Position numbers and translations under genes: made by a program
In this document: positions 22,862-64,000 of the stretch, piece after piece
How positions within the stretch are numbered: the first letter of the stretch is position 1
Layout: the number at the start of each line of letters is the position of its first letter
The notes under the pieces: generated by a model
The model's input: the letters and a program-made list of their open reading frames with translations, nothing else
The model's database searches: none
Told to the model about the DNA's origin: nothing
DNA from: Chrysoperla carnea
Taxonomy: Eukaryota > Arthropoda > Insecta > Neuroptera > Chrysopidae
Reading direction: 5' to 3'
DNA length: 64,000 bases
NCBI RefSeq assembly: GCF_905475395.1
Contig: NC_058339.1
Location: 16,748,001-16,812,000 of the forward strand

Positions 22862-25800
22862 ATGCCGCACTTTGTAAAAATGGATATAAATAATGGTGTT
22901 ATCACCTACACCTTTTCTGTAGCTGCAGCTTCACTAGCTGAGTTTGGTAAGTACAAAAATTCAAACTACCTGCTATTACTTGATTAAACTTAAAAATATT
23001 CTTTACTGAAAAGAGCAAGATATTGAATTTAAATTTATTATTTTACATTCATATCCATAGAAACATAGTCAAAAAGCGCTGTTTGATAAAGATAAAATAT
23101 ATTAGATTTTCTTAGGTTGAATAGTTTTTTGACATCTGTCCGAAACTAAAGCAAATCGATGAAAAGGTCTATTGAAAATCACTTATTTCAGCAACCAATA
23201 ACAGCCAAAACCATTTAGGTACTTCAAGCTAGAACTTTAATTATTTAAACTTTTTTATTTATTTATTGCCTAGTTTTTTTGTAATTTGTAAAAAACTGCA
23301 AACCTTCTTCAAATTTCGCAATTATTTTGCTCCCAAAAGTTATGCACGCCTCCTGGGATTAGGAAAACTCGGATTACATCATTTAGGGCTAATTGAACGT
23401 ATTAAAACGATCTTGTTGGAAATTAATTCTTCGAAAATTTTTAATTTGATTAGCCTATTATTGAAGATAATTAAATTTCCTATCTTTTATGGTACATATT
23501 TTGGTCTATATTTCTTATACTGTGATAAAAATTAAATAATTAATGTTTTACCAATCTAATTAATTATAATTTGTTATAATTAATGTATAATGAAAATCAT
23601 AAGTTTCCCCTTCTTATTTATACAAATAAATTATTTTTTATAATTAACTTGGTGTTTATACCCTAGCAATAGAAGAATAAAGTTGTTGTTTTTTCATTAA
23701 AATATCTTAATTTCGTGAATTTTGTGGTTTCAATGCTGACGTATTTATATTACGTTACTAATTTACCTCAAACCATAACACATTGTTGGAATTTATGAAT
23801 TAAGTAATATTTACAAAAACAGAATGTAATTCAGATAAATATTCAAAAATTAGGTTTTCTTGATTTTCAGAAAAATAAGAATTTTCGATAATTTCGACGT
23901 TTGACCCTGAATAAATTTTCATGATGCAGGATCGATGAAAATTTTTCAGATTTTATTTGTAATAGAGTACATAATATCTGTAACAATTTTCAGCTCCATG
24001 CAAATTATATTAATTGAAATGTCTACTGTGACCAGACAGTACTATCTCTTACCTAAAACGAAAACGAATTTACCTTTAACTGACCTTGCTGGTTAGGGTC
24101 CAATCTGATTTATTTTAGTGGACAGATTTGAATATAGGGAGGATAGCTAACTAAAGTCTTCTGGGATATGGTTAGATAAGGTTGGAGTGGCTTTCCTGAG
24201 ATACAGAAAATATAGGATTGGTCAATTTCCGACCATTACTCCATGAACCATTTTGAGCTGTTTAAGAACAACAGGAGTGTTTTGACGTCGGCGAATTTCA
24301 AGTTGCAGAGGTCATGAAAGAAAAGCTGGCTCAAGTGAGTCCATCTCATCATAGATGGCAGAGCTGGATAGTGACAGAGAAGATATATAGTTTCTTCCTC
24401 TTTCCCACTGAGATCTCCTGCAGAAATCGTGATGCACTAGCAGGCCCAATCGATAAACGTGCCTGCCGCTTAACCTGTGTCTTAATAATATACGCAACGC
24501 TTTTGCTTTTAGAGGCTATATAAACTCAGACCATGTCTGTCTTGTAATAGTCGAAACAAGTCGAAAAATTCGAAAAACTTCATTTTCCACTTCGGAATTC
24601 CCCGGAAAATCGGAAAACCAGTTTTTCCAACTTTCTAACAACCTTCTGTCATTTTTAACAAGCTTGTCGGCTTCACAATTTCCTGGAATGTTCCGTCTAG
24701 GACATACTGTTGAAGTAATTGAATACGGTAGCTCTAATATTCACATTTTTAATTTCACATATAATTTTTTTCTAAATATTTATTACCATGTGATGTCTAT
24801 ATAGACGTCTGCATGCAACAATGTATTTAGAAAATAATAAACATTAAATAGTTAAATTCTGTATGATGATTTTTGTGTGATAATTGATAATAATTAAGTG
24901 AAATTGTAAATTGTTTTGTTTATGTTTGCTAAAATAAAAATATAAATGCATATATTATATACAGTTTGTCCCGTTTTAGTGTAATTACACTCGACTTTTG
25001 GCACCGAGATATCGATATCTCATTTGACATAGTTCTCCAACTATCATTTTTTTAGGATTATATACTTGGTTTATCAAAATTGGATAAAATTTCGATGTGA
25101 TAGAGCAAAATTAAATTTTTTGAATTCTGATGACGTCATAAAGTTAAAAAATTCAATTTTTTTGATAACACAGGCAAATTTGATCCTATCTTATTGGAAT
25201 TTTTTTTGAAACCCACTACTTTTGGGTCATTCTTTTCAGCTGTGATGTCAATTTTTCGCTAGCTATCACATATCTGCTTAATTCCGGGACCAGGACTACA
25301 CATTCTTGAAACCAATCAGAGCTAGGATAATTTAGATCACAAATTTGAAAAATATGACCCAAATTTAGTAGGATTACATACTTGGTTTATCAAAATTGGA
25401 TAAAATTTGGATGCGATAGAGCAAAATTAAATTTTTTTGGATTCTGATGACGTCATCAAGTTAAAAAAATCGATTTTTTTGATAACACAGGCCAATTTGA
25501 TCCTATCTTATTGGAATTTTTTTTGAAACACACTACTTTTGGGTCATTCTTTTCAGCTGTGATGTCAATTTTTCGCTAGCTATCACTTATTTGCTTAATT
25601 CCGGGACCAGGACTACACATTCTTGAAACCTATTGGAGGTAGGTTAATTTTGATCACAAATTTGAAAAGTATGACCCAAATTTAGTAAGATTACATACTT
25701 GGTTTATCAAAATTGGATAAAATTTCGATGTGATAGAGCAAAATTAAATTTTTTGAATTCTGATGACGTCATAAAGTTAAAAAATTCAATTTTTTTGATA

Positions 25801-28800
25801 ACACAGGCAAATTTGATCCTATCTTATTGGAATTTTTTTTGAAACCCACTACTTTTGGGTCATTCTTTTCAGCTGTGATGTCAATTTTTCGCTAGCTATC
25901 ACTTATTTGCTTAATTCCGGGACCAGGACTACACATTCTTGAAACCAATCAGAGCTAGGTTAATTTTGATCACAAATTTGAAAAATATGACCCAAATTTA
26001 GTAGGATTACATACTTGGTTTATCAAAATTGGATAAAATTTGGATGCAATAGAGCAAAATTAAATTTTTTGGATTCTGATGACGTCATCAAGTTAAAAAA
26101 TTCAATTTTTTTGATAACATAGGCAAATTTGATCCTATCTTATTGGAATTTTTTTTGAAACCCACTAATTTTGGGTCATTCTTTTCAGCTGTTATGTCAA
26201 TTTTTCGCTAGCTATCACTTATTTGCTTAATTCCGGGACCAGGACTCTACATTCTTGAAATCAATTAGAGCTAGGTTAATTTTGATCACAAATTTGAAAA
26301 GTATGACCCAAATTTAGTAAGATAACATACTTGGTTGATCAAAATTGGCAATATCGTACTTTTTGATACATTTTCTTCTATAAAATATGATATCTGGCGT
26401 GGGCGTGGTACATTCTGTATATTATATATAGCGTGCCCTGTGAACATTAACATTTTATTAAGTTAGTTTTACATTATGAAGTATAATTGAGTAATCAAGT
26501 GATCAACAAGTGATAAGGTTAATGGGAAATAGAATTTAGCATACATTTATGGAAATTCAATTGTTAATAAAGAGCGAAACATTGAGAAAAAAACCAGATT
26601 TTTCGAGGTCATTGAGCATTATATTTTTTACTTCCTTGCTCAAAGCAAAGTAATATAAAATTTTACTGGCGTTAAAATATTTTGAAAAAGATGAACAGGC
26701 TTAAGTTGTTCTACTTGAATAAAGTATCTTTCATTATTATCTGCAGTCGATAGAAGTGTTAAATTAAAATCTTGGTATCCCCCACATGAGGTAACACCGG
26801 ATATAATGACATTTGAAAAAATTATAATCGATTGCTTTAAAATATTTTGTAATCTCAATTTCTAACTGGTTATACTTATATTTTATTAATGAGTTTAATG
26901 AATGAAAGTTTAATAATTAAAATAATTGCTTCTTTATTCATTGCCACTATACAATTTTAAAATAAAATTGTATATCCAAGTAGGAATTTGAATGGTTCGA
27001 AGCTATTTATAAAACTATTTTTTTATTAAGAAAGCTAAAAAATTAAATATACAATTTATATGGTTTATTTGCTTTATGTACAAAATGAAATGCTTTTAAA
27101 TTAATGTCAAGCAACCCAGCAGTTAAGTTTCTTAAAGCCTCACAGTCTATCTCAATGTGGGCAATAACGCCCCTTTGTTGAAGCTAGACGCCTAGAAAAT
27201 CAAGTGTACTGCCGTCAAAACGATACCTTATCGCTGTTGTTTAACAGTTTCAGAAATAAATTCTCAAATAATTTTCAAAAATAATCCAATATTATTTGCT
27301 CCATGCATGAGTTTAGTTACCATAGTAACGACACATTACTTTATTAATTGAAAATTGGACATAACTGCCTTTTTTAACGCTAAAATAATCCATTTGAAGC
27401 GCTGGCGTCGGTTTGGTTGTCCCCTACACCTACTATGCTCCCTGCCAATAGATCATTTGTCACCTTCAAAACTGTCTAATTAAAAATAATAATATAAATC
27501 TTTATATTGTTATAATGCCTTAAATAATTATATAACACAAATATAAATAGATTTTGGCATATTTTAAAGTCATCTGTAATTCTGTAAACTATTTAACTAT
27601 TTGCATCTATTTTCAATGTTTATTACGAAATGATGACATTACTATTTTGTTATAATACAATGTCAAGGTTCTCATTGTTTCAAGAACTTTCTTTATTAAT
27701 TTCATAGTATAGGCGCTAGTAAGGGATTTTTGAAAATCAAAAAGATGCAGTTGAGATGTAGCTCATTTTCTATGCTTTTTTGTCACGGAAAATCGATTTT
27801 GAATGATTTAAAACTCTGCCGCTCCGCAATTTGCATTTTACAATAAAAAAAAACGCGTAAAAATGTTAATTGTTAGCAGATTAGTCTGAAACTATCAAAG
27901 ATTCGATTTTGTGGATCATTTGCGAATAATATTTTTCGTTTGAAGCTTTTTCTTCGATTAAACTTTTTTTTTATCGAGTTTCACACATATGTCAAATTAA
28001 AAAAGCACCCTGTATATCGATCAGAAATCGATCGTCATATAAGTCGTTAACGGAAAGTGATACAAAAAACATTAATCTACAAAAATGATAGGAAATTTAA
28101 TTATCTGCAATAAAGGTTATTATCATTGTTGGCCTAAAATATACGATTACGCAGATATACGCCGAAACGGTTTTTCTCTAAATGGCGAAATTTCTCTCCT
28201 CCAAAATTTGTAAGGATTTTGTGAATTTACATTAAGTTCGTGCTGCTGAAATTACTTAAAAATAAAAATAACTCCTGTAATTTAGTACATTATGGACAGT
28301 AGCAGACTTCCCAATTACCTGTATTTAAATTGTCCATTGCCCGGACTATATTTCTTTCTTACTCAATCAAAAATCTTTTCAACCAACTCAACGAAGTCTA
28401 GTTATATCGCCTGATGACCTTTATCACATGATTGATTTTCGTAAATTCAATATTTTGTATTTTTGGCCAAAGTATTTTTAAATTTGTTCATTGTAAATTG
28501 TGATTAGATTATCGATAAAAAAAGAGATTAAGCAAATTTTGTAGTAGGTCTATTTAGATAAAAATTAGCATCCAAAACAGTACAAAGCCTAAATTTTTTA
28601 TGTAAATATTTGACTTTATTTTTCCGAAGATGAAATATTTCTTGGAATTGACCACAAAATAAGAAAATTGCATTTAATTGATTTGTGTAGTCAACCTGGA
28701 AGTTAAGAATTTAGTAAAAATAGAACATAATACTACAAGGTTATTCATTTACAAATTCAAAGAAGTTATTTTTGAATAGTACAAAAAAAATATTAAAAAT

Positions 28801-31800
28801 CATTAGCAAACCATACTTTTACATTAATTAGTTTTTATGTAATCGAGAAATAACCTATTTTATTTCCTGTATGTAACCTTGATTATCATTTTGTCACACT
28901 GAAAAATTATGATTCAACAAAAAAGTATTAAAGTTTACTAAATTGTATTGAAATATTGAACATTTGACATGGTAGAGAAATACCCGAGTCAATAAAGAAA
29001 AATGATCTGGTAAAATTTCGATTTTTTTGATAACACAGGCAAATTTGATCCGATCTTATTCGAATTTTTTTTGAAACCCACTCATTTTGGGTCATTTTTT
29101 TCAACTTGATGTCAGTTTTTCGCTAGCTATCACTTATATGCCTAATTCCGTGACCAAGATTCCACATTCTTAAAACCCATTAGAGCTAGAGTAATTTTAA
29201 TCACAAATTTGAAATTTATGACCCAAATTTAGTAGGATTACATACTTGGTTTATCAAAATTGGATAAAATTTGGATGTGATAGAGCAAAATTAAACTTTT
29301 TGGATTCTGATGACGTCATCAAGTTAAAAAATTCGATTTTTTTGATAACATAGGCAAATTTGATCCGATCTGATTGAAATTTTTTTGGGTCATTCTTTTC
29401 AACTGTGATGTCAGTTTTTCGCTAGCTATCACTTTTGAGCATAATTCCGGGACCAGGACCCCCCCCCCTTGACAACATACTTGCTGGCGTCCCTAAAAAA
29501 AGAAGGATTACAATGGTCAAAATTAATTATCAGCATCTTATTTTGAAAACCAACAAACAACGGGTCCAATTATTATAAAAGTTTGGGAAGTTCTTTTCTT
29601 GAATCAAAATCACTTATGAATTCGTTTAGATCTACTTGGATATATTGTTAAATCTTTAATTACATTATTATCAATAATCATTCTAGGGTCAAAGTTTGTT
29701 TTTTGTTTTATCACAAAAAAAAAAACTTTATTGGTGTGTTAGATGATACATATTTGTTGACTTTGTAGACTAGATATGTATTATGATATAATAATATTAC
29801 ACATATTTTTATAAATTAAGTAAATATTGACTTAAGCGTAAATTTAATTAAGAAATGAATTATATTTACTAATTTACTATGATAAAAATAATCCATAATT
29901 GATAATCGTTATTTAACTGACATTGAATACTTCTACATGCTACATCACTTTTCCAAAGGTCATAAGGTGCTTTATTTTGCTCATACCGTAAATAACGCAG
30001 TGGCGTAGATAGATATTTTGTTTTCCACTGGTAAATACACAGGCCTGCAACTAAAATACTGCACAGGATTTCTTCTACTAATTAATTGGTATTTTATCAG
30101 AAATATTTAAAAAGGGAATTCTAATTGTTATACTCTATATTAAGGCGTTTGGATACCAAAACGAAAATGTTACCAAAAAACTAAAATTTTTTACCCCTTA
30201 GAAAAAATCGAAAAAATCACATCAAAATTTGTGTTTCGGAATTTGATGAAACTCAATACATAAGGTATTTTCGACCCAAAAATTACAAAAATCGGGTCCA
30301 TTTGACGATTGGACGTGTAATTTCTGAGATAAAGCCAACTTCAGAATAATTTTAGGCAATATCTCGGAAACTATTCGTCTAATAGTCAAACGGATCCTAT
30401 TTTTGTAATATTTGGGTCAAAATTACCTTATAAACAGAGTTTCATCAAGATCGGATACTAAAATTTTTTTTCGATTTTTTCGCAATTTTCTTAAGGGGTA
30501 CCCCTTAGAAAAAATCGAAAAAATCACATCAAATTTTGTATTTCGGAATTTGATAAAACTCAATACATAAGGTAATTTAGACCCAAAAATTACAAAAATC
30601 GGATCCATTTGACGATTGGACGTGTAGTTTCAGAGATAAAGCCAATTTTAGAGCAATTTTTTGCATTATCTCGGAAACTATTCGTCTAGTAGTCAAATGA
30701 ATCCAATTTTTGTAATATTTGGGTCAAAATTACCTTATAAACAGAGTTTCATCAAAATCGGATACTAAAATTTGTTTTCGATTTTTTCGCAATTTTCTTA
30801 AGGCGAACCCCTTAGAAAAAATCGAAAAAATCACATCAAAATTTGTATTTCGGAATTTGATGAAACTCAATACATTATGTAATTTTGACCCAAAAATTAC
30901 AAAAATCGGGTCCATTTGACGATTGGACGTGTAATTTCTGAGATAAAACCAATACAGAGAAATTTTATGCAATATCTCGGAAACCATTCGTCTAATAGTC
31001 AAATGGTTCCAACTTTTTTAATATTTGGGTCAAACTTACTTTATCAGTGTCCTATTTTTTATTAGTCAGTTCATACATTTGAACTGTATTGTTGTAAATT
31101 ACCTTGATTTCTTAATATACATCTATTAATTCAATCCCTACTGAAACCAAGTTTAAGCTTGTTTTAGTAGTTCTATTTAAAGATACTGGTTATCGAATGA
31201 CAGAAATAATTTTCCCAATATACCTACATTTAATATTAACCAGTATCACTATAATAGTCTTTCTTTATATTTCAGCTACATTTCCTTTAGATCTTACAAA
31301 AACAAGATTACAAATACAAGGTGAAATAGCTGCCAAATCTGCTAAAGTTGTAAGTTGTTAATAAAATAATATCATTTTTTTACATGAGAAGAAAGTCACT
31401 TACACGATAGTATCATGCGCATGTCCTGACATTATTACGTCAACAGTATTTCTGATATACTGGAAATCATCCCGTTAGGCATTTAAAATAGATGAAGTAA
31501 GAAGAGTTCTCATGGACGTTCTTATGTATAAAACAAATAAAGAGAATACGCTTCGATTAAAAGATATTTGATAACTTTCTAATAACTTTTCTATCTCTTA
31601 ACAGTAACAAGCACTATGTGACTTTTAGATAATCCTAAAATTCAAGCTGTCTAAAAGATGCTCCCCACTGATCCCAAGTATCAGAATACAGTAAAAGTGA
31701 AAGCATTTTCTATTTAACAAAGATAGAAATTAACCTTGGTACACAATAATATTGACTTTTTGTTCTGTGCCATATGCTACAGTGAAAAGTTTAAAATAGA

Positions 31801-45032: not shown

Positions 45033-45389
45033 ATGGCGACAACGGATGAGTTGAAAGATCGTAATGATCCTGAATTAAAATATTTATCGGTTGATAGGAA
45101 TAATTTTAATGATCCAGCAACCCAAGCTGAATGGACACAAAAACGTTTGGTATGGGTACCACATGAGACACAGGGTTTCGTGGCGGCTGGTATCAAAGGT
45201 GAACGCGGGGATGAGGTCGAAGTGGAAATAGCTGAGACCGGTAAACGGGTATTTGTTGCGAAAGATGATATACAAAAAATGAATCCACCAAAATTTGACA
45301 AAGTTGAGGATATGGCCGAATTAACATGCTTAAATGAAGCATCAGTACTTCATAACCTTAAGGATCGTTATTATTCTGGTCTTATATAC
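45033..45389 (+). CDS. zip: Non-muscle myosin II heavy chain (zipper), first coding exon only
   Basis: Myosin II drives actomyosin contraction in cytokinesis and morphogenesis. This exon encodes 119 residues: a short N-terminus ([19 protein letters not shown]), the SH3-like N-terminal domain ([31 protein letters not shown]), and the entry to the motor head ([17 protein letters not shown], ending RYYSGLIY). It ends in phase 0 at TAC|GTAAGT. I take ATG 45033 because the conserved insect N-terminus starts there. An in-frame ATG 18 codons upstream (44979) would add MLFLKNSN..., which is not family-like. The next conserved segment (beginning T-Y-S-G-L-F) and the P-loop were not found to the right edge, so about 1,850 residues lie outside the window. 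Confidence 0.95.
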
Positions 45390-49935: not shown

Positions 49936-51179
49936 TGCGGACAATAAAATTGCAACACTTGTTTTCAAGTTTTTGGATTAAAATGCAGTGTGCTTACTGA
50001 TGGAGTTAAGACAAGTACAAAGTTTTCGAAAAAGCTATTACGCACTGGTTTTTGAATCAATTTTTTTAAAACAACAACGCCAAGAAATTATCGCCAACAA
50101 GCTGACCAGATCATTGGATCATTCGGTAGGTAGATCCGGAGAAATCCACCATTGAGCATGAATAATTTTCGGATGGATAATTTTTGAAGGAACCCGTTTA
50201 AGAAATGCTTTTGAACATAAGAGTGTAGGTTTCCGGTAGGTTACTCGGTAGGGTATTGTTTTAACTAATTTTTTAATGTTTAAACTAAACAAATAAATAA
50301 TATTGACCAAATCGCTTTGGAAAACAAATTCAAATGTCTTAGAACATTTTTTGTTAATTTTAACCACAATTATATGATAAAATCTTTATTTCGAGTCAAT
50401 TGGAGAAAATCCCATCTTTCTAGCATCTATTGAAGAGAAAATCGTTTGTTTTGGGTGGTTTTTCGTGCGCTCTCTTAACAATTAACAATCAAGCACTTAA
50501 AATGCAATCAGACCAAAATTTTTGCGGGATGTTGTTGAGTAAGCTTTACACCACAAATAATAATTTTATACATCTTAAAAATCTGTTTTTAATACACTTT
50601 TTGAGGGACGAAAATCGTAAATCGCGTGTTTTCAAATTTTACGCACTTTTTTTTCGAAAACTGGAGGGCTTAGGGCTACCCACCGGCAGCTAGCACTGTT
50701 ACGTTCAGGAACATTTTTATACGGGATTCTGGGAAAATTTTCCATTTGAAAATTATTTACGCCCAATGACGGATTTTATCGAATCTTAAGTCTATGAAGC
50801 TGAAAAGATAATACCTAAATTTTTAGATTTTGAATAATTTCCAAGTACATACATTATAAATAATAATAATTATTTAATTAATAATAATAATGCAAGGTTG
50901 CATTATTGGAATTCATAATATGAGAAGCGACTTTTGTAAATTAAGTTATTCAATTCCATATATCGACTTTGTTATCTAATCTAAAAAGATATACATACCT
51001 ATTTTAGAATTTCGTAGAAATTTAATAATAACTATTGATATAATGCCACTCATATTCAGTAAATATGTTCTAATTTCCTAACCGAAAACTTTGATATTTC
51101 AAATATATATTGTTATTTTGGAGAAATTTTATTATTGTGGTAAAAAATAATTTTTGGAGAAACTTTATTAATTTTGATC

Positions 51180-51830
51180 CAAAAAGTATAAAAATCAGGT
51201 GAATTTAATGATTGGATGCAGAGTTTCTGATATATGGCAATTTTTGGATCGATTTTAGTCCGTATCTCAAAAGCTATTCGACTAGTCAACAAATGCACCC
51301 GATTTTTGCACTTTTTGGGTCAAAATTACCTTATATATTGAGTTTTATGGAAATTGGAAATAGCAAAAAATTTTCGATTTTTTGCAATTTTTTTAAGGGG
51401 TTCCCCTTTAAAAAAATCGAGAAAATCGGAAAAAATTTTTTGTTATAGAATTTGATGAAAATCGGATGGGGTAATTTTGGTCCGAAAAGTATAAAAATCA
51501 GGTTAATTTAATGATTGGCTGCGGAGTTTCTGAGATATCGCAATATTTGGATCGATTTTAGTTCGTATCTCAAAAACTATTAGACCAGTCAACAAATACA
51601 CCCGATTTTTGCACTTTTGGGGTCAAAATTACCTTATATACTGAGTTTTATCGAAATTGGAGATAGCAAAAATTTTTCGATTTTTTGCAATTTTTTTAAG
51701 GGGTACCCCTTTGAAAAAATCGAGAAAATCGGAAAAAAAATTTTGCTTTGGAATTGATGAAACTCAGTTTATGGGGTAACTTTGTTCCAAGGCATAAAAA
51801 ACAAGTTAATTTAATGATTGGACCCATAGA
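51180..51830 (+). repeat. ~304-bp tandem repeat, about two units, related to the 307-bp array
   Basis: The palindromic junction AAGGGGTTCCCCTTT (about 51395) recurs as AAGGGGTACCCCTTT (about 51698). Phrases GGGTCAAAATTACCTTATA and AATTTAATGATTGG match the design of the 30.2-31.0 kb array, at much lower identity. Confidence 0.8.
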
Positions 51831-60819: not shown

Positions 60820-61072
60820 TTAAGGTAGTATACTATCGGTAATAGACTTTGCATTCAGAATTTTATGAAACTTTGCATAGTTGTCTATTATTATATCATA
60901 ATTAACCAGTTAAATTTTTAGGGGCCTTCAGAGAACTGAAAATTTGAACGTCCAGTTTTGTGAAATAAAATAAAATCTGTGATTTCCCATAAGAATCAAT
61001 GTTAAAATTATCTTTAAAATATCTTTTTTTCAGTTCTCCTGAAGGGCCCTAAAAATTTAACTGGTTAATCTT
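60820..61072. repeat. TTAAGGTAGT-type end and a local inverted repeat
   Basis: Starts TTAAGGTAGTATACTATCGG but no matching opposite end was found. Inside, TTAACCAGTTAAATTTTTAG (about 60901) is inverted at about 61050-61070, and the neighbouring GGCCTTCAGAGAACTGAAA also has an imperfect inverted partner. Probably a broken or partly overwritten family member. Confidence 0.5.
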
Positions 61073-61078
61073 CTATAA

Positions 61079-61340
61079 TCTATATATATAAAAAGAGAGT
61101 GTTTGTTTGTATGTCACCGATTTTCCCTAAAACTAACCATTGACCTTCGGTAGGGGATTATGTCATTGGGTAGCCCTTAGGCTCCCATTGTGAATAAGGG
61201 AGTTTGGTGGGGGTGGAATTAAAAATGATCTAGGAATTCATAGAAAATAGATTAAAAAAATAGTTCTAATAGTACAATAGGCCCCACTGTCAATAGTAAA
61301 ATTTTCACTAGATGGCGCTACTGGCGCAAATGTCTTTCGA
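61079..61340 (+). mobile_element. Helitron-like 5' end (tentative)
   Basis: TCTATATATATAAAAAGAGA followed by GTGTTTGTTTGTATGTCACC resembles Helitron 5' termini (TC start in AT-rich DNA, then a TTTG-rich tract). It leads straight into the heat-shock-element tandem repeat. No 3' hairpin plus CTRR end was located, so the right boundary is unknown. Confidence 0.4.
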
Positions 61341-61343
61341 TTT

Positions 61344-61560
61344 TTCTCGAAAATTCTGGAATGTTCCATGGATTTCTATCGAATTTTCTAGAATTTTCTC
61401 GAACATTCTGGAATGTTCTATGGATTTCTATCGAATTTTCTAGAACTTTCTCGAATATTCTCGAATGTTGTATGGATTTTTATTGAATTTTATCAAACTT
61501 TCTCGAACAATCTGGAATGTTCCATGGGTTTCTGTCGAATTTTCTAGAATTTAGAAATAC
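61344..61560 (+). promoter_or_regulatory. 52-bp tandem repeat made of heat-shock-element pentamers
   Basis: The GATTTCTATCGAA-type anchor recurs at 61371, 61423, 61475 and 61527, exactly 52 bp apart. Each unit is built of alternating TTC and GAA trimers spaced by two bases, the nTTCnnGAAn binding pattern of heat shock factor. Examples are TTCTCGAAAATTCTGGAATG (from 61344) and, from 61380, nine consecutive alternating trimers through TTCTAGAATTTTCTCGAAC. The third unit has about eight; the fourth is degraded. Known biology: three or more contiguous pentamers bind trimeric HSF strongly. Whether HSF acts here is inference. Confidence 0.7.
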
Positions 61561-64000
61561 CTTAAGAAAATTAGCCTTGTTACATAATAAAACATACCTA
61601 TAAAAACACTTAAATATTTTACAAGTTAACAAGGAAAACAAACAATTGATTAATTGTTTAAATACCATCTATAGACAGCGTTGATTGAATTTATCAGCTT
61701 AAAAAGGACATTAATGAGAATGCATATATACACGATTTAAAGATGATCCTAAGAAAACGTGATTTTTTAGCCCTTCTCGAGGAACGTTCTTAATAGTATA
61801 AAACTGAGTTTTATTGTGACGTATAACATCATTTAAAACTAACTAAATTTAATTTTGTATTCAAATATTTGATAATATAAAGAAACAGGTCGTTAACATC
61901 ATTTGGTACAAATTTAAAAATCATATACACAAGAATAATTAAAATAAAATATGTTTCTGCAGATACAATAAATAATAATATAGTATTTTATTAAATAAGA
62001 AATCAATAATTATTATTTATTAATCATAACACAAGCACAACGGCAACGCCATTCAAAAATCATTAACACAATAAATTGTAATTTCATCATACAAATATCA
62101 ATACATTCACACAAAAGGTCAAAACATTATTTGGCCAAGTCAGCCAACGCTTTTTTTTTATGTTTATTGTATACAATATTTCAGAAATAATAATCAAAAA
62201 CATGTTTATTCAATTTATCAATTTTTTTAAACCGTTAATACAACGCATAAGTTATAACTTGTTGTGCGGAAATACAAAAACATGAATTCAGAAGTAAGTG
62301 ATTTATTAAAATTTTTGGATATTTAGGTAGATGTTGGTTTTTTTTTACGTGGGAACTAGTATACCATAGAGAATGCGACCGATTAATTCGAGGATATTTT
62401 GAAATGGATTTTAAACTCAATAGATGCAAGTTTTCAATTCCACAGAAATCGCGGGCAGAGCTGCTTTTAAGCTCATATATCATTTTTGTGAGGAATATAG
62501 AAAATTTCTGATATGCTTTAAACTTACATTATTCAGTAAATGTTCGACTATTTGGTTAACCAGATAGCATTTAGTTGTCTTTTTAACAAACAAGAGTCTT
62601 ATATTTTTCTCAGTTGCTCATCTTACTACAGCGATCGATTTTCATATTGATTCCCATCATTTGAAAAGTACATATTAGTTAGGATGATTATATCGGGTGT
62701 TTCAAAGATAATGAGACTTTCTAAGAACTTTCCAGAGAAACATAAAAAAATGTTTCAAATAAAAGTTGAAATGGTTAAAATAGTCTATTGAGTGAGCATA
62801 CAAGCGTGAAAGTCAACTTCAAAATTTAAAAAAAAAGTCAGCCGAATAGTTACGATAGAAATTAACTGCAATTATGCCTATAAAGTAATGAAACAGATGG
62901 ATATTCTGTCAGGCAAACCATTTTTTAAAATAAGATAAGGTTTCCATTTGAAATTTCAAAGTTGATGTTTGTGGGACCTTCCTTGGATCATTTAATGGTA
63001 AACTGACCTTCTTGAATCGCCTCGTTATTTTTTAAACACAGTGTATATTAGTACTACAGTGTATATTGTGGTTAGGGAAAATTTTGTTAGGGTTTTCCGG
63101 TTTGCGTTGGCTTAGATTGCACACTAAAGTCAAACAATCAACAATTCATTCTACCGACTTTGTTCGATTAAGGAACCATTCCAATGTTTAAAGTCCGTCG
63201 GGAAACGTTAATCAAAATTTCTTTAAGCACGGCACCGGTACTGTAATTGAGTTTAACGAAGACGTTGCATGAACTATCTTAACAGTGCATTCTTATACTA
63301 AATCTCCGCGTTTAATGAATCCGTATTCAAGACCAATGATATTATTTCCTTGCTATATTGTCGTTATTGGAGTCGTGAAAATTCATATTTCAACATACTT
63401 AACACATAATAAAAATTTTTAAACTGAATCCTTGGACATACTGTATCATGGTATAATAATAATAATAATAGTATTAGACATTGACAGTTATTATTTCTTT
63501 GAAAATATGACATCTAAGTTGAGTAATGTATTTTGAATAATTATTACAAATCAAATTCAAAAACCAAAAATGGAAGAATTCTTTATAAATATTATTATAA
63601 ATTTTTAATTCCTTTTTTAGTTAAGATCATATAACTTTTATTTTCTAAAATTAAAATAAGTAATTATAATATATTCAATAATTAATGAGCACATATTATA
63701 TTATTACACAATTAATTTATTTAAATCATCTATATTTATTATTATATTTGATTCTTCTTAATACAATACACTACCGTAAGGCGGTTTGGGACATTTAAAA
63801 ATTATCTTTGAATAAGTTTGTAAAACAATTCATAGTTTTATAAAGATCGATGATAAACGTAGTAAACAAATAATAATTAATCAAATAATAAATATAATCT
63901 AATTTGTATATTCCATTGGATATTATTGCTATTTTGGATTTAAATAGAAAATATCTACATGAATCACACAGAAAAAATTGTTTGTAAGCCACATAACCTC

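Follow-up and report, generated by a model that had tools for sequence, protein, structure and literature searches.

The window, that is, the whole 64,000-nucleotide stretch of Chrysoperla carnea DNA analysed here, contains a presumed coding exon of a zipper-like myosin gene and, further downstream, an incomplete copy of a short Helitron that carries a tandem array of heat-shock elements (HSEs). The coordinates of these features are collected in Table 1. The exon product matches the Drosophila zipper sequence at 89% over 111 amino acids, and a tblastn search with a Drosophila zipper motor sequence revealed no further significant exon either in the window or over the following 20 kb. As the presumed first exon has been found and motor exons were not seen between it and the array, the array is presumed to be intronic: the Helitron copy would sit about 16 kb into a first coding intron that spans 38 kb or more. 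The first-pass annotation, made from the letters of the window alone, had proposed a zipper intron as the location, and this proposal is supported. A palindromic, MITE-like fold-back of about 170 bp (60901-61069; 71% self-complementary over 180 columns) stops 9 bp ahead of the Helitron 5' end. The window also has three tandem arrays whose unit lengths are 316, 307 and 303 bp (at 25053-26348, 30192-31044 and 51169-51822, respectively); they possibly belong to one satellite family.

Table 1. Features of the window, with the basis on which each was assigned
Feature	Position	Strand	Basis or remark
Presumed first coding exon, non-muscle myosin II heavy chain (zipper-like)	45033..45389	+	Myosin_N PF02736, E=6.2e-14
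Helitron 5' terminus, TCTATATATATAAAAAGAGAG...	61079..61108	+	A precedes, at 61078
Non-autonomous (predicted) Helitron copy, 3'-truncated	61079..61552	+	positions 1-474 of 788-bp consensus
CTCF-like site, TCACTAGATGGCGCT	61305..61319	+	14/15 to consensus; precedes array
HSE array, 52-bp unit x 4.1	61342..61552	+	TRF, run scan, column shuffle
Run of 5 perfect HSE pentamers	61343..61367	+	strict alternating nTTCn/nGAAn scan
Run of 8 perfect HSE pentamers	61380..61419	+	strict nTTCn/nGAAn scan
Run of 7 perfect HSE pentamers	61432..61466	+	strict nTTCn/nGAAn scan
3' truncation junction, ...TCTAGAATT/T	61545..61553	+	end of consensus match

The array is a tandem repeat with exact spacing, as had been claimed: TRF reports 84% matches and 0% indels, and additionally calls a 10-bp period within the 52-bp array. 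Inspection by eye resolves the unit into some five 10-bp nTTCnnGAAn repeats and 2 additional bp, in agreement with the shorter period. The strict scan yielded, besides the runs in Table 1, a run of three pentamers at 61536-61550. The annotation had counted runs of five, nine and eight; the first of these stands, whereas the other two are each one pentamer too long. These runs are far beyond chance. Outside the array the longest run in the window is three (at 27678 and 20827), the longest in 50 first-order Markov windows was four, reached once, and in 20,000 trials in which the 52 columns were shuffled alike in all four units the longest run was five, with a run of eight never seen. Differences between units affect 4 of 160 core sites versus 16 of 192 other sites (P=0.02), and 4 of 24 core columns versus 9 of 28 others are variable (P=0.34), the units being non-independent in both comparisons; in the third unit of the consensus element three core letters are changed. 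Selection on the HSE cores is, at the level of these sequences, weakly supported. The CTCF-like site ahead of the array is the window's best match to the consensus, and is found at position 227 of the element consensus too.

A Helitron-like 5' terminus had been noticed upstream of the array at a distance of 265 bp, and by our coordinates it lies 263 bp before it. A genome search with positions 61079-61600 as query produced 507 first-look candidates; of the 40 that were scored, one is the window copy and the other 39 show 98-100% identity over about positions 1-474. From the scored candidates 28 loci were extracted, 26 of them yielding a 5' end (L021 and L025, in which the 5' search string went unmatched, are outside this count) and 21 a 3' end. 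In all 26 parsed copies the 5' TC is preceded by an A (24 were read by script; L001, which is the window copy, and L011, which has the variant 5' start TCTAGATATA, by eye), and a T follows CTAG in 21 of 21, CTAG lying within the search string and the T outside it. T also follows the 3' end in 8 of 8 further ends. Full copies elsewhere in the genome are 488-986 bp long, with 5' TC, a 3' hairpin and CTAG, between A and T; the hairpin, which is GC-rich and falls in the last 45 bases (-7.0 kcal/mol), ends about 10 nt before the 3' end. The number of 52-bp units varies among copies. An element of this length is too short for a Rep/helicase and, on its sequence, is classed as non-autonomous. Mean divergence from the consensus is 0.64% for the 21 copies with a 3' end, a set biased to young copies because they were the top matches. 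The suggestion that a Helitron carries the array is therefore borne out by the copies elsewhere, which share the 5' end found at 61079, the terminal hairpin with CTAG and the A/T flanks.

A 3' end was not found in five of the 26 parsed copies: the window copy, L005 (which seems to be without its last bases), L019, L020 and L026. The window copy follows the consensus for 474 bp at 99.6% identity and breaks off there without a CTRR terminus, and no match to the remainder of the element was seen downstream in the window or in the next 20 kb. L020, the one other case among the 28 loci, ends at the same truncation point with a different flank, which implies either a short source copy or a tendency of copying to terminate at this point. 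Being cut alike inside the array (at 61552 in the window), the two may point to a possible second 3' end. Truncations also arise in experiments with Helraiser, according to the account of that element (PMC4778049).

The copy number of the family was gauged from its 23-bp 3' terminus, which with up to two mismatches has 302 matches in the genome, compared to 0 for a reversed control. Loci were cut out at the first eight exact matches by position, and all eight hold arrays, with a longest run of eight pentamers in seven and of six in one, in elements of 488-826 bp. The perfect five-pentamer HSE, TTCNNGAANNTTCNNGAANNTTC, has 4,484 genome matches, whereas a reversed-pattern control has 3 and the base composition of the window leads one to expect about 2.2; the 4,484 are overlapping matches, a run of eight counting four times. 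Among the first 100 matches listed, which are in position order on C1 between 0.9 and 6.7 Mb rather than a random sample, 99 sit by eye in eight clusters of array words and one is alone (C1:3233727). Seven of the clusters coincide with 3' termini of array elements, whilst the eighth, at C1:6418144, is without an exact 3'-terminus match. HSEs are accordingly enriched within the array element over the genome, as in an HSE-bearing Helitron, and by extrapolation from these first 100 matches the array family may hold about 99% of the genome's perfect five-pentamer sites.

A search of the genome with profile PF14214 gave 64 Rep matches, seven with an open frame of 1462 amino acids. The full extent of one autonomous element could be traced on C5, where it runs from A/TCTATATATATAATAAAAC to CCCGGGCGAAGCCGGGTTTTTAAGCTAG/T. 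About 333 bp from the autonomous 5' end is the sequence AGAAA TTTCT CGAAT ATTCT AGAGC, with four perfect pentamers, followed 38 bp later (start to start) by a TATATAAG box; the first ATG of the 1462-amino-acid frame is about 440 bp beyond this TATA box. The sequence GAGAGAGA adjoins the HSE, and CTCTCT is found between HSE and TATA box, the placement that both have in Drosophila hsp70. Twelve autonomous copies were inspected: in 11 a run of four pentamers precedes TATATAAG, and in the remaining one (L062, 92% identical) a run of three. Its position and the TATA box suggest that the HSE-bearing region is the transposase promoter. This 162-bp region has 22 genome matches, all of at least 92% identity and 15 of them full-length and identical; by coordinates, 14 of the 22 are beside Rep matches and 8 are not. 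Over 440 bp, six autonomous 5' ends differ from one another at 0-1 positions; over 3000 bp, 0-2 differences separate L035 from three other Rep loci (L036 and L040 being outside the comparison). Such near-identity indicates very recent movement of the family.

The ends of this autonomous family have 13 bases in common with the array element at the 5' end and agree with it in 22 of 31 columns at the 3' end. As the ends differ, mobilisation of the array element in trans is a guess, and no autonomous partner with the array element's own ends appeared among the Rep loci read, a minority of the 64 having been read to their ends. A 23-bp match (91%) between the array unit and the autonomous HSE is only suggestive of homology, since both follow the HSE pattern. 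For other Rep genes, a run of at least three pentamers is absent from eight of nine upstream pieces (L041, L050, L051, L053, L055, L056, L057 and L063), in which promoters are unmapped. The ninth, L052 (positions 180-800 of the reverse complement; C6), has upstream of a decayed Rep gene a degenerate TTC/GAA array of 10-bp period, with 33 near-HSEs versus a mean of 0.04 in 500 shuffles and about 70-75% identity, in pieces, to the 52-bp array; it is perhaps an older HSE Helitron. Within the autonomous family, L049 has two 12/15 CTCF-like sites on the other strand, upstream of the HSE. The Rep matches are unevenly spread: 35 of the 64 are on C6 (a 38.6-Mb contig in a 559-Mb genome), 34 of these between 4 and 13 Mb and some being pieces of one gene. 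At C3:3767553-3809834 there are seven Rep matches of one kind, six in a row at a spacing of about 5,813 bp, that is, tandem Rep-coding units.

The host's own Hsp70 genes provide a yardstick for the autonomous promoter. A profile search with PF00012 identified three inverted Hsp70 pairs and further genes. The pairs (L076-L081) are arranged head-to-head, as is known from Drosophila. No perfect run longer than three pentamers was found in the 900 bp upstream of 12 Hsp70-family loci (nine with a full-length start, three partial). A 13/15 HSE is positioned 39 bp before TATATAAG in six of nine Hsp70-type genes and is absent in L082, L083 and L084; the six are the members of the three pairs, near-duplicates and thus not independent. 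The autonomous Helitron promoter has the same layout with a better HSE (14/15). Recent capture of a host Hsp promoter was considered and rejected, as none of the 22 promoter matches falls at the PF00012 Hsp70 loci and BLAST against seven Hsp70 upstream regions gave short weak matches only; the likeness is consequently one of layout and not of recent descent, although older descent is possible. An exon for the HSF DNA-binding domain (positions 23-60 of 100) is present in the genome.

Transposons that respond to heat are known from elsewhere. ONSEN/COPIA78 of Arabidopsis has HSEs and heat-induced expression, but is an LTR retrotransposon with few HSEs whereas the element described here is a Helitron with arrays. 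The ends of the array element match those by which canonical Helitrons are defined (PMC4067079, PMC4778049), and the Helibat/Helraiser type shares with it 5'-TC, CTAG-3', a hairpin about 10 nt before the end and an AT target; Helraiser also has one long Rep/helicase-type frame, of 1496 amino acids compared to 1462 here (PMC4778049). The HSE cargo and the heat-shock-type promoter set the lacewing elements apart from this type. DINE-1/HINE elements, which are Helentron-associated, are likewise rolling-circle elements that are short and non-autonomous, and some of them harbour internal tandem repeats, but they are described as preferring TT targets and having non-canonical ends (PMC4067079), whereas the array element is flanked by A and T and ends in CTAG.

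The closest parallel is with Caenorhabditis, in which HSEs are dense and overlapping in Helitron1_CE, HelitronY1_CE and others, Helitrons account for a large part of the genome's HSEs, and the heat-shock genes include full-length autonomous copies as well (Garrigues et al. 2019; PMC6927752). There, heat induces Helitron1_CE RNA through HSF-1 in C. elegans, and HSF-1 binds the Helitron HSEs (PMC6765114, PMC6927752). What differs here is the host, the regular 52-bp HSE minisatellite in a non-autonomous element of less than 1 kb, and an autonomous HSE-TATA promoter in a family with other ends. The first-pass annotation had raised the Caenorhabditis parallel for the array; with an autonomous Helitron in the same genome possessing a heat-shock-type transposase promoter, the parallel goes beyond what had been claimed. 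Garrigues et al. (2019; PMC6927752) reported that, within the UCSC set, Helitrons were enriched for HSEs in Caenorhabditis alone, and wrote that the link may be limited to that genus; their survey, as described, covered annotated UCSC genomes and used the printed motif NGAANNTCCNNGGAN, unlike the plain pentamer pattern used here. A 2026 preprint (PMC13104882) cites Caenorhabditis for the association, and no later or insect cases are apparent, by title or abstract opening, among the papers listed by our literature searches.

Taken together, these results lead us to the reading, to which we assign a probability of roughly 60%, that the array is a tandem repeat within a young, non-autonomous Helitron, which spreads predicted HSF sites, and that Helitrons in this genome exploit the heat-shock response. 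Upon heat shock, HSF trimers would bind both the transposase promoter and the arrays; HSF at the promoter would lead to production of Rep/helicase, whilst HSF would open the arrays, which would then be copied and integrated at AT sites; enzyme and substrate would in this scheme be supplied together. Up to five HSF DNA-binding domains per site have been reported to bind multimeric HSEs cooperatively (PMC9148306). The elements would thereby harness the heat-shock response to move, and HSF-responsive modules would be deposited within genes or close to them. The zipper-intron copy would be one such insertion, its 3' loss reflecting either an early end of rolling-circle copying or a later deletion, and it probably has little effect on zipper.

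Under a serious rival reading, though one that we consider unlikely, the array would be a neutral minisatellite, derived from a 10-bp nTTCnnGAAn repeat that arose in the Helitron, expanded by slippage into 52-bp units and hitch-hiked with the element, the HSEs having no role in mobility even if HSF still binds them. The 10-bp period underlying the unit, the varying unit number (488-986 bp), the weak conservation of the HSE cores and the frequency of tandem repeats in Helitron-like elements (PMC4067079) all agree with such an origin. It leaves unexplained, however, the perfect HSE at the promoter position of a separate autonomous family, and the column shuffle indicates that such runs do not come by chance from the composition of the repeat, the origin of the 10-bp repeat itself being outside that test. 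Much less probable is that some 300 many-site loci serve mainly as a sink or scaffold at the level of the host, titrating HSF or gathering it into nuclear bodies upon heat shock; in its favour are the 4,484 overlapping five-pentamer matches, set against a longest perfect run of three upstream of 12 Hsp70-family loci, but the arrays may be hidden by silenced chromatin. That some other repeat, a satellite or MITE, has a Helitron-like end by chance, as the window copy with its missing 3' end might by itself suggest, is refuted by the fixed ends, hairpin and A/T flanks of the parsed copies.

If the favoured reading, of Helitrons exploiting the heat-shock response, is taken a step further, they would have taken over a strong HSF-binding landscape convergently with those of Caenorhabditis, and the Hsp70-like transposase promoter and the arrays could rewire, insulate or titrate the response, insulation being suggested by the CTCF-like site beside the array. 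This broader proposal is tentative and, in our estimation, falls a little short of even odds. If true, an independent occurrence in an animal distant from Caenorhabditis would mean that exploitation of the heat-shock response by Helitrons is a recurrent phenomenon, and comparison could then be used to test the idea that stress-coupled transposition rewires stress regulation. The C. carnea copies, being young and near-identical, permit direct tests of heat-induced transposition, of the heat response of neighbouring genes and of HSF titration.
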